Assembly (NCBI GenBank): GCA_030425045.1 | Contig: JAUHVL010000003.1 | Location: 1-64,000 of the forward strand | Direction: 5' to 3' | Source of the DNA: a bacterium | Lineage (GTDB): Bacteria > Bdellovibrionota > Bacteriovoracia > Bacteriovoracales > Bacteriovoracaceae | DNA length: 64,000 bases | Part shown: piece by piece, positions 5,240 through 22,942 of the stretch | Layout: every line of letters starts with the position of its first letter | Numbering within the stretch: position 1 is the first letter of the stretch | Program-made: the position numbers and the translations under genes | The notes under the pieces: generated by a model | Told to the model about the DNA's origin: nothing | Databases searched by the model: none | What the model saw: the letters and a program-made list of their open reading frames with translations, nothing else

Positions 5240-5557
5240 ATGGAAACAAATGAAGTTCGTCAAAAACTAGAAAGAATGAAAATGGTACTCATTGATCGTA
5301 TTCAAAGAATAGAAAGCGATAAAAAAAGAGATGAGCCAATTCCTCAAGATTTTGCAGAGCAGGCTGTTGCTGTTGAAAATGATGAAGTCCTTGATGCTCT
5401 TGATGAAGTGGAGCTAAAAGAGCTAAAGCAAATTAATCTCGCGTTAGCAGCTCTAGATAATGGTACTTATGGAACATGTACTGAGTGTGACAATGGTATC
5501 GGCGATAAGAGACTAAGCGCTCTTCCTTTTGCTACCAAATGTATTAACTGTGTATAA
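5240..5557 (+). CDS. DksA/TraR-family zinc-finger protein
   Basis: A 105-residue protein with an N-terminal coiled coil (residues 3-75) and a C-terminal four-cysteine zinc finger (C80, C83, C101, C104; CTEC and CINC separated by 17 residues). It is shorter than DksA (about 150 residues) and closer in size to the TraR/YbiI-like group. Such proteins bind the RNA polymerase secondary channel. The acidic loop between the helices, here EPIPQDFAEQ, is similar to the family tip. It converges on the radical SAM gene at 5544 with a 14-base overlap. Confidence 0.85.
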   Translation: METNEVRQKLERMKMVLIDRIQRIESDKKRDEPIPQDFAEQAVAVENDEVLDALDEVELKELKQINLALAALDNGTYGTCTECDNGIGDKRLSALPFATKCINCV

Positions 5558-6641
5558 ACCTTTCAATTTCATGAATCTCGTTGAAGATCTCGATATTAAA
5601 ATTTAAATTATAATATTCGATTTCTTCAGCGATCTTTTTCATTTCTCGACAATGACTTTCTACTAAGTTTGTTTCTTTTAGATCAGAGATATGTTTTTTA
5701 CAGCCGTTACAGATTTGGAACATCGGGCAGGTGTAGCATTCATTTTTTAATGAATGAAGTTCGGCAGAATCTGCGAGAGGAGTAAAAAAATGATCACCAT
5801 AAACTTCTTGTTCATAATTAATTTCAAACTGTCGATCGTCTCCAAAGGCACCACAAGTATAATATTTTCCGTCGGGTTGAAGAACACGAATACCGCTATC
5901 GCAATCTCGATTTAGAGGACATACGGTTTGATCAATTCGCTCGAGTCTATTCACCATTTGGCGAGTATTCCATTCATAATCAGCCAGACCTTCTTTTATA
6001 ATGTCGAGGTAAACTCGATAAATTCTAGAGAGGGGCAGAGGGCTACCACAACTTCCACTTTTATTGGCATAGTTAAGTTTGCAATCAACACCAAGTTTTT
6101 TAGCTAGACGGACATTCTCTATGGAAGTTTCTAAATTATCATTTTCAATAACGGAGATAAAAGAAGGCCGATAGCCAATTTTCTCAAGCATAAGATCTGA
6201 TATTTTGATAAAGTCTTCTTCTGTAAAAATACGATCTTTGGTTATTCTTCTAGCCTCACCATATTGAAAAGATGTTGTGACATTCATCTTAGGATGAGAA
6301 AAAAGTTCGGTCCAAGGTTTGTCTTTCGCGTTGGTTTCCCATTCCCGCCAGAATTTCCAGAGATTAGTCGTTAATGAGATATTTGCATCATATTGATACT
6401 CTTCTAGGTGATGAATGATATCCCAATAAAACTTGGGAGGCATCATCTGAGGATCACCACCATTCACGATGATTGTTTGGGTGTTTGGAAACTTTTTCAA
6501 AAAGTCGAAAATATATTTGAGTTCAAGTTGATCACTTTTATTTTCGACAAGATAAGATGAGCTACAAAAAGTACAAGCAAAATTACATGACTCTGTTGGC
6601 TTAATGATAAGGTCTATTGGTCTATGATCAACTTTCATCAT
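5544..6641 (-). CDS. Radical SAM/SPASM protein
   Basis: A 365-residue enzyme with the radical SAM cluster motif C19-x3-C23-x2-C26 (SCNFACTFC), a GGDPQ motif near residue 61 and a cysteine-rich C-terminal SPASM-type region (CPLNRDCDSG, YTCGAFG, CYTCPMFQICNGCKK) expected to hold auxiliary Fe-S clusters. SPASM proteins commonly modify peptide or protein side chains. It is the last gene of a three-gene minus-strand unit; its start overlaps the stop of the preceding radical SAM by four bases. The substrate is unknown and no small precursor gene lies beside it. Confidence 0.9.
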   Translation of the reverse strand: MMKVDHRPIDLIIKPTESCNFACTFCSSSYLVENKSDQLELKYIFDFLKKFPNTQTIIVNGGDPQMMPPKFYWDIIHHLEEYQYDANISLTTNLWKFWREWETNAKDKPWTELFSHPKMNVTTSFQYGEARRITKDRIFTEEDFIKISDLMLEKIGYRPSFISVIENDNLETSIENVRLAKKLGVDCKLNYANKSGSCGSPLPLSRIYRVYLDIIKEGLADYEWNTRQMVNRLERIDQTVCPLNRDCDSGIRVLQPDGKYYTCGAFGDDRQFEINYEQEVYGDHFFTPLADSAELHSLKNECYTCPMFQICNGCKKHISDLKETNLVESHCREMKKIAEEIEYYNLNFNIEIFNEIHEIERFIHS

Positions 6642-7726
6642 GGACTTCCCTGTTGATAAGAAAGAAGTTTATACGTTTCAATATCTTTATTTCGAATCAT
6701 CTCCTGCCAGATTTTCTTGGGAGCAGGACAGTAAGACTGATTTTCATCCCACGCAAGTTGGTAACAATCACTATTACAATAGCTAAAAGCATCACATTGA
6801 TAGCAATCTTTTGGACGATCAAACTTCTCACAAGAAATTCGTTGCTCTCGAAGAGGAGAGTTAAAGTTGCTTTCGATTGGCCAATCGATATGTCCCCATG
6901 GCTTTTCTGTTGCCGTGTTGGGGCAGCCCGAAATTGAGCCTGAGGCATTAATGGTCAACAGGCTCTCTTCGCAGTTTCGACAACGATTTCCTATATGGTG
7001 TGTTTTTATAAATCCTTCAACAAGTTCAGCTAAAAACATGTTTCCGATCGTTTCATATGTTTTGTATTCAAGAGTTTGCTTAAACATTTGATACAGCCAC
7101 TCATCTTGCTCTCGATTACTCGGAATAATATTACTATTTTCTTTTGCATGACCATCAGATGTAATTCTTTCAAAAAGAATATGCTTAAAGCCAAGTTCTT
7201 TAGCATAGGTAATAACTTCAATAGGCTCTTTTTCTTGAATCAATTTTTTGGTGAGACAAACAATCATCGTCATATAATGATTATCTTCTTTGGTTAAAAT
7301 TTGAACATTCTTTTCCCAGAGCTCTTTTTGTTTATTGTGTGTGAAGCGAATATCGTAATCCCATGATGTGCCAAAACCATCGCGATAAAGCGCATGTTTT
7401 AGAAATCTTCTTTTTTCATCAGTTAGATTGAAGACGAGATTAGTTTGCATACCAAAAGTTGTGTTTTCAAAAATACCATTAAGACCTTCGTAGGCAGCAT
7501 AGAGATCTTTTAGTGGTGCCAGAAGAGGCTCACCGCCATGAAAAATATAGCGGATGTCTTTTATATGAGGAGCATAAGACTTTAGATTCTTAAAAAAAGT
7601 TATAGATTTATCTGGATTGAAAAATATCTTTTTTCCCTTACTCCCACTTGTAAAGCAATGATCACAATTGAGATTACATGTATCTGTTGTTTTTAAATAG
7701 ACATTGATACTAGATGCGAGCTTCAT
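6638..7726 (-). CDS. Radical SAM/SPASM protein, paralogue of the enzyme at 18056-19135
   Basis: The TDTCNLNCDHC motif near the N-terminus binds the catalytic 4Fe-4S cluster, followed by FHGGEPLLAP. The C-terminal third has SPASM cysteines (CRNCEESLL, GCPNTATE, CYQCDAFSYCNSDCYQL). The protein is strikingly like the 18056-19135 product across its length, for example LKTTDTC, FHGGEP and the cysteine pattern at the end. I chose the ATG at 7726 (362 aa) because it aligns with the paralogue's N-terminus; the frame is open to 7765. It overlaps both neighbours, so the three genes are co-translated. Confidence 0.9.
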   Translation of the reverse strand: MKLASSINVYLKTTDTCNLNCDHCFTSGSKGKKIFFNPDKSITFFKNLKSYAPHIKDIRYIFHGGEPLLAPLKDLYAAYEGLNGIFENTTFGMQTNLVFNLTDEKRRFLKHALYRDGFGTSWDYDIRFTHNKQKELWEKNVQILTKEDNHYMTMIVCLTKKLIQEKEPIEVITYAKELGFKHILFERITSDGHAKENSNIIPSNREQDEWLYQMFKQTLEYKTYETIGNMFLAELVEGFIKTHHIGNRCRNCEESLLTINASGSISGCPNTATEKPWGHIDWPIESNFNSPLREQRISCEKFDRPKDCYQCDAFSYCNSDCYQLAWDENQSYCPAPKKIWQEMIRNKDIETYKLLSYQQGSP

Positions 7727-8630
7727 GATACCAGTCCAATAATTTTTTAAAACCATTACAGTCACTTTCTAAAGAGGTGACTTCTCTATAATGCTCAGTC
7801 AGGCAATGACCCATGTACTGACATTGAGAACAATATTTATTCTCTTTAACTTTATTTTTTTCTTGTTTTGACCATGAGAGATAGTCTGAGAGGTTCTCTA
7901 GCTCCAGAAAAAACTCATGATCATCTAAATCAAACTCAAGGACACCGAAGTTACCACTTGGAGTAATATAGAGATGCTCGTCACTAAAAGCGGAGTAAAC
8001 TTTATTTAATGAAGCGTGAATTCGATCTTCATTCACAAATTGAAATCTTTTTTGGGTGGGAGACTCAATCCACTTTTTTACATAATGAGTAAAATCTAAG
8101 TTTGTGATCTCATGCTGATTAGATTGATTTGAGGAGTAAGGTTTTATTTCTACACTTTGTAGTCGGCTAAGAAGATTTAATCTTGCGATTTGATCTTCGA
8201 CATCCATTTTAAGTACTTTTTCAGAGGCGAGGATTAACAGTGAGAAATCTTTTTCAAGTAGGGCCATGTGTTTAAAAACTTTTTGTGCTTGCTCACGGGC
8301 CTCAAAGTCAAAAGAAACACTGAGATAAATTCTTTCATCCTGAATTATTTTTGGAAGCTTTGTTAAGTTGGTAATGAAATTAAAAGGAGGATGACTATAC
8401 TTTTCAAGAATAGAGAGAAGTTCGTTAAGATAGTCTTCTTCTAAAAGAAAAATTTCTCCACCATAAACATCGATATGGCCGATTTCATTGAATGTCTCTT
8501 TTACTTCTCGAAGCCGAGACTCGATTTTATCTAGAGTAAGTGTTTTTCGGTCAGACAATTGCGCCTCTGTGAGATAGCAGAAATCACAGCGAAGATTACA
8601 GAAATAGCTAGGGTTGAGACTTATATTCAC
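7710..8630 (-). CDS. Radical SAM protein, first gene of a three-gene unit
   Basis: A compact 306-residue radical SAM protein with C11-x3-C15-x2-C18 (FCNLRCDFC), VYGGEIFLLEED in the position of the GGEP motif and a short C-terminal cysteine cluster (CSQCQYMGHC and a later SDCNG), a reduced SPASM or twitch-like domain. It has no N-terminal extension. It starts 50 bases from the divergent gene at 8681 and overlaps the next radical SAM gene by 17 bases. It may work with the two following enzymes on one substrate; which one cannot be told from the sequence. Confidence 0.85.
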   Translation of the reverse strand: MNISLNPSYFCNLRCDFCYLTEAQLSDRKTLTLDKIESRLREVKETFNEIGHIDVYGGEIFLLEEDYLNELLSILEKYSHPPFNFITNLTKLPKIIQDERIYLSVSFDFEAREQAQKVFKHMALLEKDFSLLILASEKVLKMDVEDQIARLNLLSRLQSVEIKPYSSNQSNQHEITNLDFTHYVKKWIESPTQKRFQFVNEDRIHASLNKVYSAFSDEHLYITPSGNFGVLEFDLDDHEFFLELENLSDYLSWSKQEKNKVKENKYCSQCQYMGHCLTEHYREVTSLESDCNGFKKLLDWYHEARI

Positions 8631-8680
8631 TTATAATTGAGGCTAGCAAAATCTATTTATGATGTCTTTGAGGAGTTTTT

Positions 8681-9214
8681 GTGCGCAGCGTTTTTTTAAG
8701 TCTTGTCTTGTTCTTTGGTTTACTTGGCACTGTCTATGCTCAGGATGATCAAAATAATTTGAATGCCTCTCAAGTGAATAAGTTAGACTGGGATCAGTAT
8801 AAAGGTAAGGCGATTCTTTCGATGGTTTATAAAGATAAGTTTTTACGCGTTAAGATGCATACATCGTTTGAAAATGTTTTTGATTTTGACGAACTGCCTA
8901 GTAGTGGCAGTGCGTTGGGTACATGGAACTCCTATAAATCCAAATGGGAAAACTCTACCTCAATGTTGAGAACAACGCAGAGTAATTGTGACTTTTCTAA
9001 AGGTAAAAAAACAGTTGAGTCTCCTGCTCAGTCTGGATGGTTTCAGCTTTTGTCGATTACTAAGTGTGAGTCATCACCTAAAGGAATGAGAGTCTATATA
9101 GATTTCTTTGATGGTAATTCAAAAATTCGAGAGTTAGATGTTACGATCGAAATTGAGGGCTCACCAAAAAGGTTTGTTAATCTTGAAAATGGAAAGGGTG
9201 AAGTTGTACTTTAG
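8681..9214 (+). CDS. Secreted protein of unknown function
   Basis: Starts with GTG, supported by AGGAG five bases upstream. The 177-residue product has a clear signal peptide (RSVFLSLVLFFGLLGTVYA, cut before QDDQ). The mature part contains two cysteines (QSNCDF and ITKCES) that could form a disulfide, and a strand-rich C-terminus. I do not recognise a domain. The gene is divergent from the radical SAM trio and convergent with the Tat-signal protein at 9211, overlapping its end by four bases. Confidence 0.65.
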   Translation: MRSVFLSLVLFFGLLGTVYAQDDQNNLNASQVNKLDWDQYKGKAILSMVYKDKFLRVKMHTSFENVFDFDELPSSGSALGTWNSYKSKWENSTSMLRTTQSNCDFSKGKKTVESPAQSGWFQLLSITKCESSPKGMRVYIDFFDGNSKIRELDVTIEIEGSPKRFVNLENGKGEVVL

Positions 9215-9594
9215 GAAATTGCCCAGCCAGTATCACTACCAAAGAAAGTAATTTTAATATTTGCTAAGCTATCAAGTTCTAAGAAGTCATCGTATCCCTC
9301 AATACGATATTCCTCAGAGGATAAAATTGCAGGATTTTCAAGAGAGTCTTTATCAATAACAAGATAAAAGCAGTCACCTTCTTTTGGATTGAGAGGGGGA
9401 GAAATTTTATCATGCCCTTTTACAACGTAAACTTCATCTTTTTTAAGTTGATAAAAGGTATCGGATTTATGTTTATCATTTAGATTAGGTGTTGCACCTG
9501 ATACGTCTTCTTTTTTTAAAAATTGATTTAGGAAAGAGAATGGTGCCGTTGCCGCGAGCACTCCCAATATAAATTTTCTTCTTTGTAGTTTCAT
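9211..9594 (-). CDS. Small exported protein with twin-arginine signal
   Basis: A 127-residue protein starting MKLQRRKFILGVLAATAPF, a twin-arginine motif followed by a hydrophobic core, so export through Tat is likely. The mature part has one cysteine (GDCFYLV) and ends FFGSDTGWAIS; no cofactor motif is evident. It is divergent from the prepilin gene at 9628, with 33 bases between. Tat substrates are normally folded before export, which would suit a protein modified or assembled in the cytoplasm, but this is inference. Confidence 0.6.
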   Translation of the reverse strand: MKLQRRKFILGVLAATAPFSFLNQFLKKEDVSGATPNLNDKHKSDTFYQLKKDEVYVVKGHDKISPPLNPKEGDCFYLVIDKDSLENPAILSSEEYRIEGYDDFLELDSLANIKITFFGSDTGWAIS

Positions 9595-9627
9595 ATCTTA
9601 GAGTATAATACAGGTGAGGATAAAAAG

Positions 9628-10920
9628 ATGAAAAAAATTTCTTTTTTTAGAAAACAAGGTTTTTCTATTGTTGAGGTTATGGTTGCGGCTGGAATCATGG
9701 GCGTGGTAACCCTTGGTTTAAATAAGTTAACTGAAACTCAATTTAAAACTGTAAAAACAGTTGAGTCTTCAAGTGAGGTGACAAGTATCCTCACTCAAAT
9801 GAAAACAATCTTAGCAACCTCAGAATCTTGTGAAGCTACCTTTGTCACTAACCCCGCAAATAGTGGGAATCCCTACCGAATTAATCAAGGGGCTCTTTCA
9901 GATCCTATGGCCATCAGACAGCTTTCACCATCATCAGGTTCGATTGTTGATAAATTCATAGCAAACACGAATAAAAGTTTAGCCAGAAAATACGGTAATG
10001 GTGGAGTGAAAATTCTTTCATACTCATTATCAACATCAGATTCAGCAGTTGGAATTACTGCAGGGGACACTGTTGGTACAACACACCTTCTCGTTCGCTT
10101 TTACAGGGGAAAGGGAACACTTGGAAATGAAGAAATCGTTAAAAAGATTATTTTAAATGTGGAGAGAGTTTCTCCAACAAATAATAGAATCGCTACTTGT
10201 AGTACTTCAAGTGCTGGTGTTGGAGCTGCTCTAGCTTCTTGTTCTTCCTTAAGTGGAAACTATATTCAGGGTACTCCGGATGAATGTCACCTTCCCGATT
10301 ATCGAGACCTTACGGTCAATACGAATAATCTGCCAAACCGAGGTGTATCTGAATTATATATGAGGCAATTATTAATGATGGAGACATCGTATACAAGTCT
10401 GACTATTGGTGATGCCTCAACAGATACTGCTATTTTTGAATCGGCCGTTGAAATTAACGGCCCCACTTCTTTTAATGGGAACTTAACAATAACAGGTACA
10501 ACTACCTTTAGTGGCGGGATTGTTATTTCTGGTGATTTAGAATTAAGTTCGGATAAGAGACTTAAGAAAAATATTCGCCTCCAAGAAAGATTGATGGATA
10601 AGATTCGTTTGCTCGATCCTGTCGTATTTGATTGGAAAAAAGATAATCGAAAAAGTTACGGTTTTTTGGCCCAAGATGTAGCTAAACTTTTTCCAACGAT
10701 GGTCTCACGTCAAGAAGATACAGGTTTGTTGGCCATCAGGTATATCGAACTTATCTCGGTTGCTTTTCAAGGTGTTAAGGAGCTCGATAAAGAAATTGAA
10801 GAGCTGAAGAAAGAAGCTGTAGACTTAAAACAGGAAAACAATCATTTAAGAGAAGACCTAAGTAAAATGAAAGATATATTATGCAGCCATTTTAAGAATA
10901 AAGAGAGCTGTAATTTATAG
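9628..10920 (+). CDS. Prepilin-type protein with C-terminal S74 intramolecular chaperone domain
   Basis: Residues 1-40 are a prepilin leader and helix: G11 before FSIVEVMVAAGIMG with the conserved E16, so a PilD-type peptidase should cut and methylate it. Residues 40-250 are an unrecognised globular region with cysteines. Residues about 255-305 are a Gly/Thr/Ser-rich beta segment as in phage tail spikes. From about 308 comes SDKRLKKNIR and YGFLAQDVAKLFP, the peptidase S74 chaperone of tail fibres, followed by a coiled coil (385-425). The combination suggests a trimeric, pilus-mounted adhesin or fibre. The next gene follows 8 bases later and likely encodes a partner. Confidence 0.8.
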   Translation: MKKISFFRKQGFSIVEVMVAAGIMGVVTLGLNKLTETQFKTVKTVESSSEVTSILTQMKTILATSESCEATFVTNPANSGNPYRINQGALSDPMAIRQLSPSSGSIVDKFIANTNKSLARKYGNGGVKILSYSLSTSDSAVGITAGDTVGTTHLLVRFYRGKGTLGNEEIVKKIILNVERVSPTNNRIATCSTSSAGVGAALASCSSLSGNYIQGTPDECHLPDYRDLTVNTNNLPNRGVSELYMRQLLMMETSYTSLTIGDASTDTAIFESAVEINGPTSFNGNLTITGTTTFSGGIVISGDLELSSDKRLKKNIRLQERLMDKIRLLDPVVFDWKKDNRKSYGFLAQDVAKLFPTMVSRQEDTGLLAIRYIELISVAFQGVKELDKEIEELKKEAVDLKQENNHLREDLSKMKDILCSHFKNKESCNL

Positions 10921-10928
10921 GAGTATAG

Positions 10929-11528
10929 ATGGGTACGCTATCAAGTAGATTGACAAAAATTACTTTTGGAACAACTGGTTCAAGACCTTCACTTTCTAAG
11001 GTGACAATCAATAATACGACTGGTTCCGTTACAGGTCCTGTCCCAAGTAATGCTGCATCCGCAGAAGGAATTATGGTTGATGGCGACCTTATCGCAGATA
11101 GAGTTTGGAATGCAGTATGGAATGATCTGGCAGATTATCAACCTCTTAATGATGAGTTAGTTTTTGGAAAGTGTTATTACGATACCCTTGAGGGAGCTAG
11201 GTTATGTACGGAAAGATGTCAGAAGTCAGTCATTGGGATTGCCTCGGACTCTTTTGGCTTTGCTGTTGGAGTAAATGATTTTAGACAAGTACCTATTGCT
11301 ATCGCTGGTTGGGTACTAGCTTATGTTGATAAAGAATACGAGCCGGGAACACCTCTTACTAATAATGAGCAGGGAATACTGACAGAAATGACAAAAGAAG
11401 AAAAGAGTGAGTTCCCTGAAAGGATAGTAGGTATCTATAAAAGAAAAGAGTATCAAGAGAAGTGGGGGCCAGCTGAAGAGAGCATGGTCGAAGTCGATGG
11501 ACGTCACTGGGTTAAAGTTAAGTCTTAA
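10929..11528 (+). CDS. Tail-fibre-like/Peptidase_G2-like protein
   Basis: A 199-residue protein with a low-complexity Ser/Thr/Gly-rich N-terminus and a C-terminal domain of the type AIAGWVLAYVDKEYEPG, FPERIVGIYKR and VDGRHWVKV. This pattern resembles the end domain of Gram-positive phage tail or appendage proteins (Peptidase_G2-like). It has no signal peptide. TAGGAG lies just upstream of the ATG, and the gene follows the prepilin/S74 gene directly. I infer that the two form parts of one extracellular fibre; the similarity is from memory and should be tested by a profile search. Confidence 0.55.
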   Translation: MGTLSSRLTKITFGTTGSRPSLSKVTINNTTGSVTGPVPSNAASAEGIMVDGDLIADRVWNAVWNDLADYQPLNDELVFGKCYYDTLEGARLCTERCQKSVIGIASDSFGFAVGVNDFRQVPIAIAGWVLAYVDKEYEPGTPLTNNEQGILTEMTKEEKSEFPERIVGIYKRKEYQEKWGPAEESMVEVDGRHWVKVKS

Positions 11529-11958
11529 TCAAAAACTCTTTTTTAAAATAATCAACAGTTTTCAAAACACTTTTAGATTTGCTTTGTTCAAAATCAGTTA
11601 AGTTATTTTCTTTTAAATATGTAATAACGTTTTCATATAGTGAGCGCGTGTCTTCATTGAAAGGCTTAAAAAATTTATCGTTCCCATGGAGAAGGTCTGG
11701 GTCGGATAAGGCTTCTAAAAAAGAAACATCAAAATACTTTTCAAGTAAGAATGAATAAATAAGTGCGACCGCATAGGACTTTGCGGGAAAAGATAAAAGA
11801 TCATTATTTAATTCAGTAAAGTAAGAGTTGATTTTAGAAACTAGCTCTTGTTCGTTAAGTTCTTCTACAATGTAATTTAAGTCATGAATATCATCGTCAG
11901 GGATATTTGTTTTATGAAAAATTAATTGGTTTTTTTTATGTTCTTTCACAGCCCCCAA
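11518..11958 (-). CDS. Unknown protein downstream of a 2OG oxygenase
   Basis: A 146-residue, mostly helical acidic protein with no recognised domain, signal or cysteine motif. It overlaps the upstream oxygenase gene by 13 bases. The frame opens at a TTG at 11958, and a GTG at 11949 is also possible; neither has a convincing ribosome-binding site, so translational coupling is likely. Convergent overlap (11 bases) with the tail-fibre-like gene. It may be an accessory of the oxygenase, by position only. Confidence 0.55.
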   Translation of the reverse strand: MGAVKEHKKNQLIFHKTNIPDDDIHDLNYIVEELNEQELVSKINSYFTELNNDLLSFPAKSYAVALIYSFLLEKYFDVSFLEALSDPDLLHGNDKFFKPFNEDTRSLYENVITYLKENNLTDFEQSKSKSVLKTVDYFKKEFLIKT

Positions 11959-12488: not shown

Positions 12489-12557
12489 TGCTAGGCTTGT
12501 CTTTCCTCTTGTTTACTAATAGCATTATTGTACTTAATCCTCAATTTGAACAGCACT

Positions 12558-13574
12558 ATGAATGATTACAGCTTAATAGATAATAAAATCGCTAGCTATG
12601 CAGAAGTCGTCGTGTGCTTGTTTGACCATTGTAATCTCCAATGTGCTTTTTGTCCTCAAGATCATGACTCTCAAGTCGGAACAAGCCAGCAGGAAATATT
12701 AAGTAAGGTGCCAACAATATCTCACTGGATAAATAAAAACGAAAGGTCGAACTTTTTTAAAGTTCATATTATGGGTGGTGAGTTATTTCAGGACTACTGG
12801 ATTGAGAAAGGTTATCTCAATATTTATCGAGAGTTTATAGAACTGATTAGAGCTTCAACAGACCCAAAAAAAGATATCTGTTTTAACTTTGTTAGTAATC
12901 TTGTCTTTACTCGTTCTGAAGAGGTGTTGAGGTTTTTTGAATTGCCTTACACCATGCTGTCTATTTCTTATGACCCAAAAGGAAGATTCTCAGAAGGAAC
13001 AAAAAGTATCTTTTTAGAAAATGTTTCAAAGTTTGAAAACAAAATAGAGATGGTTTCAGTTGTTTTGACCGAGCAAAATATTAAAGCGATTCAGATGGGG
13101 GATTCGGTATTTGATCAATTATACAAAAAATACATTATTGACTTTGATCATTTATTACCATCGACCGAAAATGCTGAAAGGTTACTTCCACTAGAAAGTC
13201 AAAAACAAGAATTCCTTAAATATCTCATTGTTCAATATCCAAATTGTTTGAACGTCGCTCCCTTTGTTGAAGAAAAACCTCAACATAAAATGACATGCAC
13301 GAGAGGCAACTCATTAACAATTCTAAAGGATGGTACCATTCCTGAAGGATGCTCTGGTGCTTTATTTTTGAATGATTCCACTACTGAAGAGTTGAGCTCT
13401 CCCGAGATAGTGAGTGACTTTGTTTTTGAAAATGAATGTTTAACTTGTGAGTTCTATAAAAACTGTCCATTTCCGTGTTTTGTTAGTGAGCAATACAAAT
13501 CTAGTAAAAAAAATATAAAAGGCTGTTTATATAAAGATGTTTTTAAAATGGTGAGGGGGGCAAAGTCATGTTGA
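12558..13574 (+). CDS. Radical SAM protein with C-terminal cysteine cluster
   Basis: The radical SAM motif is C25-x3-C29-x2-C32 (HCNLQCAFC), with MGGELF in place of the GGE motif. The C-terminus carries a SPASM-like cluster (CTRGNSLTI, EGCSGA, CLTCEFYKNCPFPC). The ATG at 12558 gives 338 residues; a TTG at 12528 is an in-frame alternative. Its end overlaps the start of the cobalamin-type radical SAM by seven bases. It is probably a peptide- or protein-modifying enzyme, with unknown target. Confidence 0.85.
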   Translation: MNDYSLIDNKIASYAEVVVCLFDHCNLQCAFCPQDHDSQVGTSQQEILSKVPTISHWINKNERSNFFKVHIMGGELFQDYWIEKGYLNIYREFIELIRASTDPKKDICFNFVSNLVFTRSEEVLRFFELPYTMLSISYDPKGRFSEGTKSIFLENVSKFENKIEMVSVVLTEQNIKAIQMGDSVFDQLYKKYIIDFDHLLPSTENAERLLPLESQKQEFLKYLIVQYPNCLNVAPFVEEKPQHKMTCTRGNSLTILKDGTIPEGCSGALFLNDSTTEELSSPEIVSDFVFENECLTCEFYKNCPFPCFVSEQYKSSKKNIKGCLYKDVFKMVRGAKSC

Positions 13575-15280
13575 AAATAGCTTTTGTTAACCCTCCCCAC
13601 GCTGATTGGTCATTGGCCAACAATATGACTTATCTACAGATTCAAAGTCATTATCAAAGATTTGGCTCATACAAGGAACAGGTTGAGTGGATTCCCGCAC
13701 CCTATAGATGGAATTGTTACACCAGTTTTACAGAGGTTTATGCTGAAATCTGTGAAGCGGATATTTTTCTCATGAGCTCATATGTTTGGAATGCTGAAAT
13801 TTTAGATGAGTTCTCAGAATATATTAAAATGAGAGATCCTGAGAAAGTTCTTGTCATCGGTGGACCACATATTGGTACAAATGATGCTGATTTATTACAG
13901 AAAAGAAAAAGAATTTATGATTTTATTTGTCAACCAACCAAACCGGGAGAGGCTTTTGTAGAAGACCTTATTAACTCTTGGTTCGATAATCAGGGGGCAA
14001 TCGCTAGAGAAGATATTTCATGGGAGCTTAGCTCTTTTAAATCTAAAAAGTTTGTACTCGATCAAGATTATTCGGTTTATGAAGACCATTTTGATCATCT
14101 TAGCGAAGTACTGGCTTATGCACGAAAGCATAATCTCGAACCTTTTGTTGTGCTAGAAACAACAAGAGGGTGCCCTTATCGCTGTGTTTATTGTGAATGG
14201 GGTGGAGGAATAAATACAAGGATTCAAAAGAAAAATCTAGAGATCGTTAAAAGAGATATTCTTTCCTTGAAAAAAGCAGGCTTTAGGTCGGCTTATTTGA
14301 CTGATGCAAATTTCGGCGTTTTTAAAGAGAGAGATTTTGAAATCTATCAATTTGCTTGGGATAACCAGTTCTATTTGACAGATATTTCCACTGTGAAAAC
14401 ACCAAATCTTGAGTTGAGAAAAGAGCTAGTCGACTTTTGCTCTGAAGTTGTCGGCGAGGATCACGATACAGTTTATAAAGAAGAAAGAGGGACTGATATG
14501 TGGGGAAGGATGGAATACGTTTCTATAGTCCCCACTGTTTCAATACAAAGTATATCTGATACTGCTATGAAAATTGCAGAGAGAGTTGACTTAAAGTCTG
14601 CGGACAAAATCGCCTTAAGTGAATACCTCAACCAGGTCTGTGAGAAAAGGGGTTACCCAAAGCCGGCGCTAGAATTAATTCTAGCAATGCCTGGATCTAC
14701 GTTAGATGATTTTTATAATGAGATGGATGTTATTTGGAATTTTAAAGCCTGGTCTAGCTTTAGGCATGATTATATGTTTTTACCGGACTCAACATTAAAT
14801 TCAGAAACTTACAAAGAAAAGTATGGAATAGAAACAGTTAAAGTTTATTCCGATATTGTAGATGAAGATGGAATAGATAACTTCAATAGCCTCTATAGAA
14901 ATAAAGAAACACATTACGAAACGATTAGAAGTTGTTTTTCATTTTCTGAAGTTGAAATGCGTGAAATGTGGTTTATGAATAGCGCTTCAAACTATTTATT
15001 GAAAGATATTTACCCTGAGTTTACTAACTATTATAGGCCTCCAGAGTTTGCGAGAAAATGCTTTCGAGAGATAAGAAAGTTAACAGAGTACTCTGTAATT
15101 GATGAAGATATCAAAGATATTTTTAACCCTCTTACGCCTGCTCGTTCTATTCGAAGATTGGGAGGTACATTTAGGGTTGAGTTTATCGAGAGATTTCTTA
15201 AAAGGAATATTCTTCTTATAAAGGATGGTTTACTCAAAGATTGCTTGGTAGGAGATTATTGTGAAAACAGCTTTTTATGA
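13568..15280 (+). CDS. B12-binding-domain radical SAM protein
   Basis: Residues 1-160 look like a cobalamin-binding Rossmann domain (MLKIAFVNPP start, VLVIGGPHIG near residue 98), without an obvious DxHxxG lower-ligand motif, as is common in RiPP-modifying members. The radical SAM motif is C202-x3-C206-x2-C209 (GCPYRCVYC). The large C-terminal part (350-570) is not recognised. Such enzymes methylate unactivated carbons or rearrange side chains. It overlaps the radical SAM upstream and the oxygenase downstream (20 bases), so three enzymes are made from one message. Confidence 0.85.
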   Translation: MLKIAFVNPPHADWSLANNMTYLQIQSHYQRFGSYKEQVEWIPAPYRWNCYTSFTEVYAEICEADIFLMSSYVWNAEILDEFSEYIKMRDPEKVLVIGGPHIGTNDADLLQKRKRIYDFICQPTKPGEAFVEDLINSWFDNQGAIAREDISWELSSFKSKKFVLDQDYSVYEDHFDHLSEVLAYARKHNLEPFVVLETTRGCPYRCVYCEWGGGINTRIQKKNLEIVKRDILSLKKAGFRSAYLTDANFGVFKERDFEIYQFAWDNQFYLTDISTVKTPNLELRKELVDFCSEVVGEDHDTVYKEERGTDMWGRMEYVSIVPTVSIQSISDTAMKIAERVDLKSADKIALSEYLNQVCEKRGYPKPALELILAMPGSTLDDFYNEMDVIWNFKAWSSFRHDYMFLPDSTLNSETYKEKYGIETVKVYSDIVDEDGIDNFNSLYRNKETHYETIRSCFSFSEVEMREMWFMNSASNYLLKDIYPEFTNYYRPPEFARKCFREIRKLTEYSVIDEDIKDIFNPLTPARSIRRLGGTFRVEFIERFLKRNILLIKDGLLKDCLVGDYCENSFL

Positions 15281-15773
15281 TGATTTTTTTGAGAAAGGTT
15301 TTAAGAAGTTTAGCGAGCCTGATGCTTTGTCTCTTATCCGTATAGAGGAGTTTAAGCTCTTAAACGTGGAAGAGAGGACAAGAGACAATGGTATTAATGA
15401 TCTCTCTTCAACTTTAAATCAAAGACTGAGTGCTTTCTCTGTTTACTTGAAAAATAAATACATAGATCCCGTTTGGGAAAAATCAAAGTTTAATAAATAT
15501 CTCGTCTGGGACGGTGTTGATAGAGATAATCAGGGGTGGCACACAGATCTTTTTGAGGGTTATGACCTTTTTTTTCTCTATTACTTTGATGATACTTCTC
15601 CTCAAACTGGAGGAAGTATTAACTTTAAATGGAATCGTAATGAAACTCAGCAATTTTATCCAGAGGCAGGAGACTTGTTTCTGGTAAGTAATACAAGAGG
15701 CTTTTGGCACCGAGCTGAGTCGACTACGGTAACGAGGAGGGTTGCAAGTTTTGACTTCACTACAGCAGAGTAA
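15261..15773 (+). CDS. 2OG-Fe(II) oxygenase family protein (second copy)
   Basis: Starts with GTG after GGAG at seven bases. The 170-residue product has the HxD iron motif in GWHTDLF, the distal histidine in FWHRAES and an arginine in VTRRVASF that would hold 2-oxoglutarate. GGSINFKWN and AGDLFLVSN lie on the predicted core strands. It is homologous to the protein at 11946-12488. The start lies inside the end of the cobalamin radical SAM gene, so hydroxylation is probably coupled to that pathway. The substrate is unknown. Confidence 0.8.
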   Translation: MKTAFYDDFFEKGFKKFSEPDALSLIRIEEFKLLNVEERTRDNGINDLSSTLNQRLSAFSVYLKNKYIDPVWEKSKFNKYLVWDGVDRDNQGWHTDLFEGYDLFFLYYFDDTSPQTGGSINFKWNRNETQQFYPEAGDLFLVSNTRGFWHRAESTTVTRRVASFDFTTAE

Positions 15774-16074
15774 CGAAATTGAAAAATTAATGAATAAGAA
15801 AAGAGAAATTGGAGTTGAAAGAGATCTTTGTGCTGAACTCTATAATGTATGGATCTCAAAACTTCATGACCATGAGGACGATCCAGAAAAGTATGAACTT
15901 TATCTCAATTTAATAGCCAATATGGAACCATATGGAAATATGCTTAAAGAGCAAATTCGAGAATTAAATCGCCAAATATGTGAAATAGAGGGTGTGGAGT
16001 CGATTGCTGAAACTAAGTATGAAATGGAGTGTGTGTATAAGTATGGCTTCGATAGGCCCGAGCATTCTGAATAA
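15751..16074 (+). CDS. Small helical protein of unknown function
   Basis: A protein of about 107 residues predicted to be nearly all helix, probably a coiled coil (residues 5-85), rich in Glu and Lys, with cysteines in the last third (RQICEIEG and EMECVYK). The start is unsure: TTG at 15751 has a good GAGGAGG ten bases upstream, while the first ATG is at 15790 with a weak site. It overlaps the end of the oxygenase gene, implying coupling. It could be an adaptor or leader-binding component; nothing in the sequence proves this. Confidence 0.55.
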   Translation: MTSLQQSNEIEKLMNKKREIGVERDLCAELYNVWISKLHDHEDDPEKYELYLNLIANMEPYGNMLKEQIRELNRQICEIEGVESIAETKYEMECVYKYGFDRPEHSE

Positions 16075-17008
16075 TACTAAAGACAAAGCTAATCAAGCAT
16101 GAGTTCCCACTAGCGATCCCATTAATATATTCAAGTACTGGTAACTTACTATTTAAAACTAAGTCGATCATTGACGTTTCTTTTTCAAAGAGGGCAAGCG
16201 TCATCATAGAAAACGAATCATCAGCTGGAGGAAGAGTTTTGTCACTCTTTTCAAACTGTTTCACTAAGTTGTTTATCTTTAAAAAATACTCTGCTTGATA
16301 GTTCATCAAGACGTGTTTCTTTGACCTAGAAAATAGTTCATCGTCAGTTATCCAGTTGAGGTCATGGTTGTGAAATAAGATATGTTTTAAATTGTCTTCA
16401 ATATGGATTTCTTTATTAAAATGAAATTGATAAAAGTCAGATAAGAAAATGAAAATTTCATCCTTTAGAGTGAAAATTTTATCAAACCACTTCTCCCAAA
16501 CATAATTGATGAGTGTTCCTTCTAAAATATCGCTTTGAGGCTCTTTTAATAACAAAATCTCAAGAGGTACTTTTGATAAATTTAATTGAATTTCATAGTT
16601 GTTATTTATATTTATCTCCGTGAGGACTTTTGAAACATACTCTTCGTCATAGGAGATACCTCTCAGTTGACACTCTTTTATAAGAGGATCGATGAATTGA
16701 TTTAGGTTATTTACTTTAAAGAAATCACTCCAGCAGGAAAAAAATAGAAAGGGGAGGTAATACTTATCGGTATAGATAACCGTTTTCCCTCCTGATGTCT
16801 TAGATGCTTCGTCCCAAAAGAGGTGAAGATTACCTGAATACTGATTAAGCAAGAGACTTTGAAAGTTTTCAATTTCAAGAGATTGAAATGTAGAATTTAC
16901 ATCTGCATCCGGGTGTCTCTGCGTTTTTTCAACAGCAAAGAATGTTTTCCATTGGGGATTATAGTTTTCTATAGAGTCTAAGAATAAATTCTCGTAAAGA
17001 TGTATCAT
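16013..17008 (-). CDS. Unknown protein, paralogue of the 17011-17982 product
   Basis: A 331-residue soluble protein without recognised domains. It shares with its neighbour a short block of type FWDEAS or FWLDAK, then a strand, then FFSCWSDFFK or LFQFWKSIFK, which I take as evidence of duplication. Its ribosome-binding site AAGG lies in the last codons of the upstream gene and the start is five bases further on, so the pair is coupled. Its 3' end overlaps the convergent 107-aa gene by 62 bases. Function unknown. Confidence 0.6.
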   Translation of the reverse strand: MIHLYENLFLDSIENYNPQWKTFFAVEKTQRHPDADVNSTFQSLEIENFQSLLLNQYSGNLHLFWDEASKTSGGKTVIYTDKYYLPFLFFSCWSDFFKVNNLNQFIDPLIKECQLRGISYDEEYVSKVLTEININNNYEIQLNLSKVPLEILLLKEPQSDILEGTLINYVWEKWFDKIFTLKDEIFIFLSDFYQFHFNKEIHIEDNLKHILFHNHDLNWITDDELFSRSKKHVLMNYQAEYFLKINNLVKQFEKSDKTLPPADDSFSMMTLALFEKETSMIDLVLNSKLPVLEYINGIASGNSCLISFVFSIIQNARAYRSHTYTHTPFHT

Positions 17009-17010
17009 AG

Positions 17011-17982
17011 CTACCTTAGAATATAATGCTCTTTTAACTGATGGTTATTTTTCTTCAGATAATCTATTGCAAAGTAGGAACCACCAAGGCTTAAGATTTT
17101 TTTTGCTAGAGATATATGAAAATTTTTTTCCAATTCATCACTTAGAGATGTTTTTGAAATAACGTCAGCGTATTTTTCAATTTCTGCATGGTCCCTCATA
17201 TGTGTGGTCTTGTTTGAGATTATTTTCTCAGAGAGATTGAAATTATAGTTTAGGAAGAATTTCTTCACATAGCTTGCATTGCCATATTTAATTTTATTGT
17301 CAAAAATCCAAGAGACCTGGTTCTGCTCCTCTCTTGAGAGCTGATAATAATTTTGAAGAAGAGTCTCTCGAAGCTCTTGTAGTTTTCTAAACCAAACTTC
17401 TTCTTGCCTTTTTTTTATTTGATTTTGTAATTCTAACTTGTATTGAAAACTATTATTAACTAACCATGCTCCATAGAGGTATTCAATATTTAGTTCTTCA
17501 TAATCTAGAGGTGTTAAGTCGATTATATTGACTTCCTCAATAAGGGCTTTGACTTGTTTTTCATCGAGATTTGGAAATGGTTGCTCGAACTTCTCAAGTT
17601 GACCCATCTTGTCGAGATACTCAATTTGGATTTTAATCTCCCACCATTTCTGCATAAGTTTATAAAGCGTAAGAAAAAAAGCAGTATCGTGTGACTTAAA
17701 GATACTTTTCCAAAATTGAAAAAGTAATTTTGACAGTGTCTTGTTGTCGCAACAAAAAACAATACGCTCACCTTCTTTTGCATCGAGCCAGAATTTTGTT
17801 TCAGATCCTTGGTGGTTATCACAAATAAAAGCTTTCAAGGTGGTTGTCTCACCAACGTTTTTATCGATGAGTTTTGAAATGGGGTGAGGCATAATTTCTT
17901 GAGTTAAATAGGTTGCTTTTGGATACCTCAAAAAGCAGGAAATATAATCAATATAATAACGTCCAATAAGGTGATACATCAA
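17011..17982 (-). CDS. Unknown protein, first of a paralogous pair
   Basis: A 323-residue, largely helical soluble protein. The block ETKFWLDAKEGERIVFCC followed by LLFQFWKSIFK resembles the product of the next gene. No catalytic or metal motif is evident. The gene is divergent from the radical SAM gene at 18056, with about 70 bases between that must hold both promoters. Position suggests a role in the modification pathway, for instance as a scaffold or substrate carrier, but this is not shown by sequence. Confidence 0.6.
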   Translation of the reverse strand: MMYHLIGRYYIDYISCFLRYPKATYLTQEIMPHPISKLIDKNVGETTTLKAFICDNHQGSETKFWLDAKEGERIVFCCDNKTLSKLLFQFWKSIFKSHDTAFFLTLYKLMQKWWEIKIQIEYLDKMGQLEKFEQPFPNLDEKQVKALIEEVNIIDLTPLDYEELNIEYLYGAWLVNNSFQYKLELQNQIKKRQEEVWFRKLQELRETLLQNYYQLSREEQNQVSWIFDNKIKYGNASYVKKFFLNYNFNLSEKIISNKTTHMRDHAEIEKYADVISKTSLSDELEKNFHISLAKKILSLGGSYFAIDYLKKNNHQLKEHYILR

Positions 17983-18055
17983 AAAAGACCTTAATTATTT
18001 GGTGAGCTAGAGTTATGATTATTCCAGTAAATAAACTATTTTGAAACGGATTTTA

Positions 18056-19135
18056 ATGCTTACTGACGACCTGATCATTTATCTTAAGACCACAGATACC
18101 TGTCAGTTGAATTGTGCTCACTGCTATACTTACGGAAGTAATGCTGCCAAAGGTTTTTTTGATCCACAAAAAACAATTAACTTTTTAAAAAATATGAAAG
18201 AGGCAAGACCTCAGGTTTCTTCCGGAAGTATTACTTTTCATGGAGGAGAACCTTTTCTTTGCCCGACGAATCTAATGTTTGATGTTTGGAATGAAACAAA
18301 AGATTTATGGCCAAGTGTTTGGTGGTCGATTCAATCAAACCTTACCCTTGAATTAACTCAAGGTCGAAAAGACGTTCTTGATAGAATCTGCCAAAAAACT
18401 TGGGGAACTTCGTGGGATTATGGTATTCGCTGGGCCGATAAGAGATCTGAAGATCTTTGGCGAGATAATATCAAATCAATGGCCAGTGACGGTCATAATA
18501 TCACCAGCATTGTTTCTGTTTCTAAAAAGTTAATTGAACAGGTTGAGCCTATTGAAGTCATTGAGCAAATGGCAGAACTTGGAATCAAACATATAAATTT
18601 TGAAAGAATAACAAATAATGGAAATGCTCAGAGTTCACTTAATAATAATTTAATACCCGGTAATCGCGAGTTGGATCGTTGGTTTGCAAAAATGTGGGAT
18701 CAAAGTGTCGAGCATAAAACCTATCAGTATATTGATAACCTCTTTTTTGATTCAATTTTAACGTCGAAAGTCTACCAAACGTTTAGTGGTTGCCGATGTC
18801 GTAAATGTGAGCAAAAAGTCTTTACGTTAAATGCTAACGGTACCATTGGCGGTTGCCCTAATAGTGCTGTTGAAAACTCTTTTGCTAATATTGAAGACCC
18901 GATTGAGAAAATTCTCTTTAGTGAAGGAAGAATGTGTAATATTCAAACAGAATCAATCAGGCCCGATCCTTGTTATACTTGCGAAGTTTATGATTTGTGT
19001 AATGGTGATTGTCATCAACTCGGTTGGGATGGGGATATCTGTGCGGCACCAAAGTCAATGATGAAGTCAGTGATGGCTTGTAATGATATGAAGTTATTTA
19101 AATCGTTTTTGAACGGATTTCAAGGACAGGAGTAA
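18056..19135 (+). CDS. Radical SAM/SPASM maturase next to the CXXX-repeat precursor
   Basis: The catalytic cluster motif is C16-x3-C20-x2-C23 (TCQLNCAHC), followed by FHGGEPFLCP. The C-terminal SPASM region has CRCRKCEQK, GGCPNSAVEN and CYTCEVYDLCNGDCHQL, enough cysteines for two auxiliary Fe-S clusters. A TTG at 18041 is an alternative start; the ATG at 18056 aligns with the N-terminus of its paralogue at 6638-7726. The precursor gene follows after four bases, the layout seen in RiPP operons whose SPASM maturase forms thioether or other cross-links. This is the best candidate for the core-modifying enzyme. Confidence 0.9.
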   Translation: MLTDDLIIYLKTTDTCQLNCAHCYTYGSNAAKGFFDPQKTINFLKNMKEARPQVSSGSITFHGGEPFLCPTNLMFDVWNETKDLWPSVWWSIQSNLTLELTQGRKDVLDRICQKTWGTSWDYGIRWADKRSEDLWRDNIKSMASDGHNITSIVSVSKKLIEQVEPIEVIEQMAELGIKHINFERITNNGNAQSSLNNNLIPGNRELDRWFAKMWDQSVEHKTYQYIDNLFFDSILTSKVYQTFSGCRCRKCEQKVFTLNANGTIGGCPNSAVENSFANIEDPIEKILFSEGRMCNIQTESIRPDPCYTCEVYDLCNGDCHQLGWDGDICAAPKSMMKSVMACNDMKLFKSFLNGFQGQE

Positions 19136-19139
19136 AAAA

Positions 19140-19757
19140 ATGCCAGTAGGTGGACAAGTAACAAAAGATGACAAAATTAACGACTTTATTACTAACGTAA
19201 TAAACCCTGCAATTGCTAGGATTCAAAAAGATAAAGCTGACTTAGGTGTGGCGGCAAGTGCACCGACTCCTGTTGTAAACAAAACGGACCTTAGTGTTAA
19301 TCCTGGCACTTTTGGCTTTAATGGTACAAATCCAAGTGCTGTTAATACAAAAGGTGGAGAACTTACGGCAGCGGCCCTCGCGGATCTTTTTATCAGCTAC
19401 GCTCATAAATTAACTTCCATTAGACGCTCAACTCTTATTCATCACCTTATCCAAACGAACTCTAGTGGGCATTTAAGTTATACCACAACAAATGTTTGGA
19501 GTGCTCAAGTGACAGCATTGTCAGCAGAATATGCTCTTCCTCCAGCAACATTTAAAACAAGAGTTGAGGCAACTTCAAATCCTCTGACCGCTCTTCAGCC
19601 TGGGCAACCAGCATCACTTACAGCGATTGATGCACTTATCACAAAACTAAACTCCGTTCTCGCTACAAGATCAACAGAGGGAATTGGGACAATGACAGTC
19701 TACTCATGCCACAGTAGTTGTCACTCTTCTTGTCATGGTTCAAGAGGAAGGAGATAG
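19140..19757 (+). CDS. Candidate RiPP precursor with C-terminal CXXX repeats
   Basis: A 205-residue protein whose last 16 residues are a strikingly different tail: C190 H S S, C194 H S S, C198 H G S, then RGRR. These are the only cysteines in the protein. The preceding 189 residues are cysteine-free, Ala/Thr/Asn-rich and look like a long leader or carrier (segments GELTAAALADLFISYAHK and ALITKLNSVLATR). A threefold C-x-x-x repeat beside a SPASM enzyme matches the general scheme of CXXX-repeat radical SAM maturation systems known by protein-family models. The RGRR end could be trimmed. Modification is inferred, not seen. Confidence 0.7.
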   Translation: MPVGGQVTKDDKINDFITNVINPAIARIQKDKADLGVAASAPTPVVNKTDLSVNPGTFGFNGTNPSAVNTKGGELTAAALADLFISYAHKLTSIRRSTLIHHLIQTNSSGHLSYTTTNVWSAQVTALSAEYALPPATFKTRVEATSNPLTALQPGQPASLTAIDALITKLNSVLATRSTEGIGTMTVYSCHSSCHSSCHGSRGRR

Positions 19758-19759
19758 AA

Positions 19760-20482
19760 ATGGAAATTAGAGAAGTTACGGCTCCGCTTGAGATCGAGCA
19801 GATTAAAGAATTTATTGATAACAAGGAACTTGTTTATCTCGTAGATTATAAAAACTCAGAGTTACAAGGGATAAAACTTTTAACTTATTTATCTAACCTC
19901 GAACTTCCGGCTGAAATTCTTTTTGACGATTGTAGCTTTGATCAAAAAGAAGAGTTTTTTAAAGCTTATATGAACACCAGAAGTGTTTATCGAACAGAGT
20001 CTGTTCTCTTTAATATCGCTTCTTTGCTTCTACACTATCGTGATATTGATTGTGAAAAAATTTATCTTAATCAAATTTTCTCAGAAGAAGAGAAAAGTCG
20101 ATTTATTGAAAATAATAGAGAGACAATAGAGCAATGGGAAAAGTTCATAGAGAGTAGTAGTCTTTTTGCTCAAACATGTATTGATAGTTTGGTTGATGTT
20201 GAAAATATTAAAAAAGCTTTTGGTGAAATTAATGACCAAGAAGCGGTGGGCGCCAATGTTGTCAATATGTTTGGCTTACCTGCTTTTATGGATTTATTTT
20301 TTACAGCAGGCTATAAACATGAAATGAAGTATTATACGCCTCAGTTTGAAGAATATATGTTTAGAGGGAAAAATCTTTATAGCTTTTATGTTTGTGAAGA
20401 AAATACAGTTTTTAAAATGTTTCTTTTACATGTTAATGGCGAATTAGATCATAATCTTGATGCCAAAGTCATAACAGAATAA
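19760..20482 (+). CDS. Unknown protein translated from the precursor operon
   Basis: A 240-residue soluble acidic protein with no domain I recognise. The start is the ATG at 19760, preceded by GGAAGGAG, which lies inside the final codons of the precursor. It has four cysteines, not in clusters. It could be a leader-recognition, chaperone, peptidase or export partner for the precursor. An ABC-F ATPase gene follows after three bases, so the operon may extend further. Confidence 0.6.
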   Translation: MEIREVTAPLEIEQIKEFIDNKELVYLVDYKNSELQGIKLLTYLSNLELPAEILFDDCSFDQKEEFFKAYMNTRSVYRTESVLFNIASLLLHYRDIDCEKIYLNQIFSEEEKSRFIENNRETIEQWEKFIESSSLFAQTCIDSLVDVENIKKAFGEINDQEAVGANVVNMFGLPAFMDLFFTAGYKHEMKYYTPQFEEYMFRGKNLYSFYVCEENTVFKMFLLHVNGELDHNLDAKVITE

Positions 20483-22700: not shown

Positions 22701-22942
22701 AAAGGGCGATACAATATTTTTCAAAAGAACAGCTAGAAAACAGTGCAAAGCTTACTCCTAAACAGATAATAGAGTTTCTTGATGATTTTAGAATGCTGCA
22801 TACTCAAAACAGTCCTGTAAAGTCGAAGTTAATAAGTATCAAAGTTCCTGAGGATTTACTAAGAGCCTTTAAAAGAAAGTCAGAATTCGAAGATGTTCCT
22901 TATCAAACAATGATCAAAAAGCTTATGAAGCAATGGCTATAA
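22697..22942 (+). CDS. Small ribbon-helix-helix-like protein, possible antitoxin
   Basis: An 81-residue protein whose C-terminal half (ISIKVPEDLLRAFKRKSEFE and PYQTMIKKLMKQWL) has the strand-helix-helix pattern of CopG/BrnA-like DNA-binding antitoxins. The N-terminal part is charged. It overlaps the nucleotidyltransferase gene upstream. The order, nucleotidyltransferase first, is opposite to that of most antitoxin-first pairs. Confidence 0.65.
   Translation: MKRAIQYFSKEQLENSAKLTPKQIIEFLDDFRMLHTQNSPVKSKLISIKVPEDLLRAFKRKSEFEDVPYQTMIKKLMKQWL

Follow-up and report, generated by a model that had tools for sequence, protein, structure and literature searches.

Why would a bacterial chromosome carry six radical S-adenosylmethionine (radical SAM, rSAM) genes within 15 kb, and do their products share a substrate? 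The question is raised by a locus in a Bacteriovoracaceae-type genome (Bdellovibrionota; 3.97 Mb), at positions 5544-20482 of the 64,000-nucleotide stretch that we analyzed (positions 1-64000 of contig JAUHVL010000003.1, G000:C66 in our numbering; hereafter the window). The locus (the module) encodes six rSAM enzymes (rS1 to rS6), two 2-oxoglutarate (2OG)-Fe(II) oxygenases and a candidate precursor protein. An initial annotation had taken this density of enzymes as the sign of a pathway that modifies a protein or peptide in several steps, and that proposal is supported here by the co-occurrence of the genes in related bacteria and by their fixed order in phages. Two findings go beyond that annotation: phages carry the module too, with a link to tail fibres, and the C-terminus of the precursor (CHxS...RGRR) hardly varies. 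The best explanation of the whole, which we consider probable, is a phage-type cassette that remodels the tail of a fibre-associated protein, likely an attachment tip. Judged from the genomic evidence, modification of the CHxS tail by the enzymes is the part of this explanation that is very likely to hold; that the product is an attachment tip has roughly even chances.

The precursor gene suspected in the initial annotation is real (19140-19757), and its product ends in YSCHSSCHSSCHGSRGRR. Among 119 non-redundant bacterial and viral precursors, a set that was partly retrieved by the motif and for which the R-x-R-[RK] end belonged to the filter, the consensus end is C-H-x-S-C-H-x-S-R-G-R-R, with counts (out of 119) over the last twelve residues of C 112, H 111, x, S 105, C 116, H 119, x, S 109, R 119, G 107, R 119 and R 119; within the last seven positions, H and R-x-R-R are invariant in 119/119. 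Loci seeded by rS1, which were retrieved independently of the motif, have the same tail. In relatives from other genera, the ends are VCHSSCHSSCHGSRGRR, YCHSNHCSHSNHGSRGRR, VCHSACHDNCHSSRGRR, YCHGNFPPPCHGSRGRR, CHTNVPTPPPCHASRGRR and WCHSSHSSHSSHSSRGRR, and the precursor of phage Atu_ph07 (gp170) ends in CHSSCHASCHNSR. A 44-bit DNA pattern of the tail matched at least 120 viral stretches (in frame in 79 of the 80 loci checked), as compared to 2 matches for a control pattern, also of 44 bits, in which the codons for Cys and His had changed places. The tail draws on every synonymous codon, which indicates selection at the protein level. The His is invariant and the Cys is sometimes replaced (e.g. 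CHSSHSSHSSHSS in locus L027). Correlations between tail residues and optional enzymes gave associations that are confounded by kinship.

This pattern of conservation bears on one rival explanation, in which the CHxS tail is an Fe- or Zn-binding fibre tip and the main task of the rSAM and 2OG enzymes is to set up or adjust the metal site, not to make cross-links. His-coordinated iron occurs in phage tail needles and T4 fibre tips, the Cys-His spacing in the tail is regular, the His persists where the Cys is substituted (as in L027), and the oxygenases could hydroxylate ligand side chains. To our knowledge, however, the metal sites of known fibre tips require no dedicated maturases, and four to six rSAM enzymes exceed what a metal site needs, and we regard this explanation as unlikely.

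AlphaFold2 predicted a confident domain for the precursor (pLDDT 84.4, pTM 0.80), with low confidence for the residues after 190 (the CHxS tail) and no secondary structure beyond the last strand; the tail is thus exposed in the predicted structure. Searches of the PDB with this fold gave no credible match, and a fold search matched phage proteins only (probability 1.00), including a 296-residue protein of Atu_ph07. A tblastn search of the precursor against phages gave no match although phages carry it, so phage precursors were recognized by motif, synteny and fold. Fusions of precursor and fibre were looked for and none were found.

The precursor also occurs in variant forms. The phage precursor at L229:7391-7945 has five CHxS-type repeats (CHCSCHSSCHSSCHSSCHSSRARR), which shows that the repeat number is variable. 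A second precursor type of ~130 aa with the same CHxSCHxSCHxSRGRR end is seen in L206, L208, L279, L075, L086 and others, as tandem pairs directly after a fibre gene. Three proteins of 504-660 aa from Myoviridae sp. ctijX18 (BFVD A0A8S5USJ7, A0A8S5USJ8 and A0A8S5USV2) have the precursor fold (probability 0.99-1.00) and may be fibre-length versions of the precursor. The phage module of L220 has u_19718 (defined below) ahead of the precursor, whose tail contains an additional CDH/CHCS stretch.

The genes of the module are as follows; u_19718, u_17011 and u_11518 denote the proteins of 19718..20482, 17011..17982 and 11518..11958 and their counterparts elsewhere.

5544..6641, minus strand: rS1, radical SAM/SPASM-type, the module's most conserved enzyme, 48-51% identity to cultured jumbo phage copies (profile search; CxxxCxxC and 8 conserved later Cys)
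6638..7765, minus strand: rS2, radical SAM/SPASM-type, paralogue of rS6; its phage counterpart is directly upstream of the precursor gene (profile search)
7710..8630, minus strand: rS3, radical SAM enzyme with four C-terminal Cys (profile search)
8681..9214, plus strand: secreted-looking protein with a signal peptide; homologue in one further cluster (L070); module membership uncertain
9211..9594, minus strand: small protein with a twin-arginine-type N-terminus; several relatives keep it next to the pilin/fibre pair; uncertain member of the module
9628..10920, plus strand: fibre-like protein with a type IV prepilin N-methylation motif, a Peptidase_S74 intramolecular chaperone (SDKRLK) and a coiled coil
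10929..11528, plus strand: companion of the fibre protein, ~60% identical across genera
11518..11958, minus strand: u_11518, conserved protein (phrog_20737), after rS3 in phage modules
11946..12488, minus strand: 2OG-Fe(II) oxygenase 1 (PF13640, HxD...H)
12528..13574, plus strand: rS4, radical SAM enzyme with a 7-Cys SPASM-like C-terminus
13568..15280, plus strand: rS5, B12-type radical SAM enzyme with KedN5, CysS and TokK as its nearest matches, probably a C-methyltransferase; present in some phage modules
15261..15773, plus strand: 2OG-Fe(II) oxygenase 2 (PF13640, HxD...H)
15742..16074, plus strand: small conserved protein, after oxygenase 2 in phages as well (~57% identical)
16013..17008, minus strand: u_17011-family protein; counterparts between u_19718 and rS4 or rS1 in phages
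17011..17982, minus strand: u_17011, same family as the 16013 protein
18041..19135, plus strand: rS6, radical SAM/SPASM-type, directly upstream of the precursor
19140..19757, plus strand: precursor (putative substrate), a ~190-residue folded domain and a C-terminus predicted to be exposed
19718..20482, plus strand: u_19718, conserved protein (phrog_20767); its gene directly follows that of the precursor in nearly all modules, bacterial or phage

The enzyme content given in the initial annotation was borne out by profile searches and motif checks: CxxxCxxC is intact in all six rSAM proteins, and both oxygenases belong to PF13640 (2OG-Fe(II)) and keep HxD...H. Five of the rSAM enzymes have C-terminal cysteine clusters, as had been noted, with at least seven later Cys in SPASM-like positions in rS1, rS2, rS4 and rS6 and a smaller set (four) in rS3. 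Scores for the SPASM domain TIGR04085 are 25.5-27.6 bits (cut-off 27; formally passed by rS6 alone), and all five of these enzymes match one phage family, phrog_1802. rS5 is the enzyme with the B12-type N-terminus (weak PF02310 match), and its nearest matches are the methylcobalamin enzymes of the KedN5, CysS and TokK type. Not noticed before were the paralogy of rS2 and rS6 (~41%), for which the full-length matches among solved structures are sulfatase maturases, and the membership of the genes at 11518, 15742, 16013, 17011 and 19718 in the module. We considered u_19718 as a degenerate radical SAM protein and rejected this, since weak structure matches to SuiB (Z 2.5-2.9) were unsupported by profile comparison; a PDB fold search with u_19718 found no credible match.

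With the enzymes and the substrate candidate in hand, a second rival explanation can be weighed: a conventional ribosomally synthesized and post-translationally modified peptide (RiPP), where the CHxS segment would be modified and then cleaved off, giving the bacterium a small free peptide with bioactivity (as an antimicrobial, metallophore or signal), and phages would make a similar diffusible product. The combination of rSAM/SPASM, B12-rSAM and oxygenase genes is typical of RiPPs, the C-terminal core is short and repeat-rich, and some tails are weakly similar to the rSAM targets HxsA, FibroRumin and CXXX-repeat. The general traits of rSAM RiPP systems are found in part, i.e. CxxxCxxC with auxiliary-cluster (SPASM) Cys and an adjacent precursor with a conserved Cys-containing C-terminal core, but not the short, unstructured, protease-removed leader and the exporter in the cluster: the body of the precursor is predicted to be a folded domain of ~190 residues, and profile searches recognized no peptidase, protease, exporter or transporter gene in the cluster. 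Phage versions moreover lie inside tail-fibre gene blocks, and the virion-protein block of Atu_ph07 discussed below begins at the precursor. A released peptide is in our estimate improbable.

To see if the genes of the module belong together, the check that the initial annotation itself had put forward, we compared 129 genomes of the same family (Bacteriovoracaceae-type, Bdellovibrionota). rS1 (E <= 1e-30) and rS3 (E < 1e-60) are present in exactly the same 13 of them (Fisher p = 4e-18, a value that ignores kinship; the carriers are spread over several genera). Module-bearing relatives include metagenome-assembled genomes of Halobacteriovoraceae, Bacteriovoracaceae and Bdellovibrionaceae; most of their clusters contain u_11518, u_19718 and a cupin or 2OG gene, and in several the S74 fibre gene and its companion adjoin. 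The 10929 companion is found in 11 of the 13 module-bearing genomes and in 4 of the 116 others (p = 4e-11). The closest relative (G061/L054) has all the enzymes of the window. A single-protein scan of the genome contigs with rS6 gave no match, and the rS1 alignment succeeded. The identical presence of rS1 and rS3, together with synteny kept in bacteria and phages, argues that the gene density is not due to chance, and on these sequence comparisons the locus is one conserved system.

The same module is found in phages. Using tblastn, we found homologues of rS1, rS2, rS3 and rS6 in the same seven records, which represent six cultured jumbo phages (Atu_ph07, Phosso, FLC6, FLC8, S13 (SURPRISE13) and DT01). 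In the four phages examined, the cassette has the order cupin - rS2 - CHxS precursor - u_19718 - rS4 - rS1 - rS3 - u_11518 (u_11518 is displaced in Atu_ph07), with oxygenases and additional rSAM genes in some, and it is placed after virion or tail-fibre genes in all four. A JmjC_2 match of the cupin fits a 2OG hydroxylase. All parts of the phage module (rS2 - precursor - u_19718 with rS4, rS1, rS3 and u_11518) are in the window, in a rearranged order. IMG/VR contains 349 stretches that encode relatives of rS1. The 37 complete viral loci seeded by rS1 mostly share one order and include rS2 (37), u_19718 (36), a precursor by fold or motif (35, of which 30 have RxRR), rS4 (31), rS3 (31), u_11518 (31), a fibre domain (25), a cupin (24) and rS5 (17). 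The adjacent phage fibres that were examined match tail-fibre PHROGs.

A reduced version is found in one clade of phages (L238 with its relatives), whose precursor ends in CHSSCHSSCHGSI or similar (CHGSI) without RGRR. The module of this clade has no rS3, rS4 or u_11518 and retains rS2, u_19718, two u_17011-type genes, rS1, rS5 and two oxygenase-like genes. Among 42 loci of at least 15 kb, the RxRR end is found in 37/37 loci that have rS3/rS4 and in 0/5 that lack them. This variation hints that the rS1/rS2 pair goes with the CHxS units, and rS3/rS4 with the RGRR end.

According to the authors of the DT01 and IBB_35 genome papers, phage radical SAM genes may serve phage metabolism or DNA (repair, anti-restriction methylation, host metabolism) (PMC8541153, PMC3322345). 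If this held for the module, the CHxS neighbour would be incidental. However, the precursor stays next to rS2 in nearly all complete loci and has a nearly invariant tail, the enzymes are SPASM-type (known SPASM members mostly act on proteins or peptides), and no replication or DNA genes are found inside the bacterial copy. We consider this third explanation extremely improbable.

A link to the virion itself comes from Atu_ph07. The report on its proteome (PMC6102473) places most of the 131 virion proteins in coding sequences (CDS) 31-76, 170-215 and 284-329, and gives CDS 215 as the major capsid protein, as does the sequence record; the GenBank and RefSeq records have 714 features each. Gene 170 is the CHxS precursor; given the agreeing numbering, the virion-protein block 170-215 begins at the precursor. 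In the window, the surface-fibre-like proteins mentioned in the initial annotation are also real, with the 9628 protein carrying the prepilin N-methylation motif and Peptidase_S74 (PF13884, E 1.3e-12; SDKRLK at residue 308).

Is the bacterial locus then a decaying or selfish leftover of an integrated phage? Its close kinship with phage modules and its sporadic distribution (13/129 family genomes) would agree with this, but all reading frames in the module are intact with catalytic motifs retained, several genera share the synteny including the pilin/S74 pair, and the rS1 of the window falls in a supported bacteria-only clade of six. The flanks are ordinary chromosome (dapF-like, rRNA methyltransferase-like, DksA-like, ABC-F-type ATPase and cbb3 oxidase genes by open reading frame (ORF) inspection; DksA confirmed by profile search), and no phage sheath gene was found, unlike what is expected for a contractile prophage or tailocin; we therefore rejected a prophage or tailocin reading of the window, and a leftover is very unlikely. 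The other bacterial copies are placed among phage ones in the rS1 tree (a quick search, with the careful search unfinished and several long-branched rows), which suggests that the module has probably been transferred between phages and Bdellovibrionota more than once, with either direction possible. Module contigs also occur in other prokaryotic bins, i.e. L206, L208 and L209 (Rhodobacteraceae Water_Bin34), L207 (Euryarchaeota SP339) and L210 (Rickettsiales MED606); these are probably misbinned phage contigs, and those with a row in the rS1 tree group with phages. Just outside the module (window 22242-22942), an ORF with DUF6036/DUF2204 matches looks like a nucleotidyltransferase and precedes a short ORF; together they resemble a nucleotidyltransferase toxin-antitoxin pair.

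No single described system known to the initial annotation combined these parts, and this still stands: none of the module enzymes or precursors tested reached an NCBIfam equivalog cut-off. The nearest relatives are the modules of the six jumbo phages, which have the same enzymes, precursor tail and neighbours next to fibre or virion structural genes, but are phage-borne and have a phage tail fibre as their fibre. Their annotations name radical SAM, cupin, 2OG and hypothetical proteins one by one; phage genome papers treat these genes as accessory or of no assigned function, or guess DNA repair, and eight rSAM genes in a structural cluster have been termed highly unusual (PMC12390700). HxsABCD (His-Xaa-Ser) likewise has at least two rSAM enzymes and a protein with H-x-S repeats, similar to the L027 tail CHSSHSSHSSHSS. 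Membership was rejected (best HxsA 16/121.65 bits, HxsC 34.1/267.9 bits; the matches listed include neither HxsB nor HxsD), as were the CXXX-repeat and FibroRumin targets (TIGR04117 and TIGR04135; 13.7/50 and 15.9/45 bits for the L229 precursor, and 28.8/350 for rS6 with TIGR04115) and a viperin (pVip) or defence role (at most 31/180 bits; PADLOC pVip at most 34 bits). The rSAM/SPASM RiPP maturases (PapB, DynA, DarE, CteB) and the anaerobic sulfatase maturase share CxxxCxxC and SPASM-type Cys with the module enzymes, but the matches are far below equivalog cut-offs, and the module has a folded substrate and four to six rSAM enzymes per locus. rS5 has the domain plan of KedN5, CysS and TokK, but scores 84.5 bits against a cut-off of 700 and has different partner genes. 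The mosaic adhesive trimer (MAT) fibres of Bdellovibrio, which are used in prey recognition, have an S74 chaperone (SDxxxK) as does the 9628 protein (PMC10769870); they have a ~130-residue beta-rich domain after a signal peptide, whereas the 9628 protein starts with a type IV prepilin motif, and the MAT paper mentions neither radical SAM enzymes nor post-translational modification. We found no paper that reports the motif or a fibre-linked rSAM system in the literature searched (open-licence, without preprints and with few subscription papers), and within it the module appears not to have been recognized before as a protein-modification system. The same genome has a second dense rSAM patch (L001-L003; G000:C34, ~146-193 kb of the contig) of ~16 genes, including several twitch-domain enzymes above the NF033640 cut-off and a KedN5-like B12 enzyme (L002:5935-7686), which is unrelated to the CHxS module except for 27% identity to rS5.

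In the explanation that we prefer, the bacterium would carry in its chromosome a copy of a modification cassette of the phage type. The folded domain of the precursor, with u_19718, would present the tail to rS2/rS6 and rS1, and rS6, rS2, rS1, rS3 and rS4 would act sequentially on the exposed CHxSCHxSCHxSRGRR segment. rS1 and rS2 may handle the CHxS units, with SPASM-type chemistry linking or altering them (Cys thioether or other SPASM-type cross-links are candidates), and rS3/rS4 may act on, or require, the RGRR end. rS5, where present, would C-methylate, and the one or two 2OG oxygenases would hydroxylate His, Arg or Asn. The mature protein would then work with a fibre, i.e. the adjacent tail fibre in phages and the pilin/S74 pair (9628-11528) in the bacterium, as a fibre-associated tip or cap that is made by the ribosome and then remodelled chemically, most likely for attachment of phage to host or predator to prey. 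The bacterial neighbour, encoded at 9628, belongs to the S74 proteins of prepilin type; in Bdellovibrio, fibres with S74 serve to recognize prey (PMC10769870).

Several points weigh against this explanation. Modification of the tail is so far a prediction from genomics. The presence of gp170 in the virion is inferred from the cluster boundary stated in PMC6102473; a fibre domain adjoins the module in 25 of the 37 complete viral loci, not in all; the 10929 companion occurs without the module in four genomes; and the association of RGRR with rS3/rS4 probably rests on what is apparently one evolutionary event. No signal peptide is evident in the precursor of the bacterium or in the 10929 protein, and the phage sheath family PF04984 was not found in the window's genome, so a surface role in the bacterium would need a separate export route.

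What the finding means is that phage rSAM genes hitherto assigned to DNA repair or metabolism are linked, in hundreds of viral contigs, to one putative substrate, with its near-invariant CHxS...RGRR end, beside tail-fibre genes. Atu_ph07, S13, FLC6, FLC8, DT01 and Phosso are cultured, tractable phages for testing, and the defined peptide motif can be sought in virion proteomes that are already available, in which tryptic peptides that bear a modification would have escaped detection. We rate as evenly balanced the broader proposition that phages and predatory bacteria share a new class of modification, in which up to six rSAM enzymes and several oxygenases build a non-canonical, covalently remodelled tip on a fibre-associated protein. 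If it is true, phage attachment organs bear enzymatically built chemistry and host range gains a biochemical layer that is invisible in the fibre sequence; predatory bacteria would employ the same strategy, and recognition of receptor or prey would depend on post-translational chemistry, not on amino-acid sequence alone.

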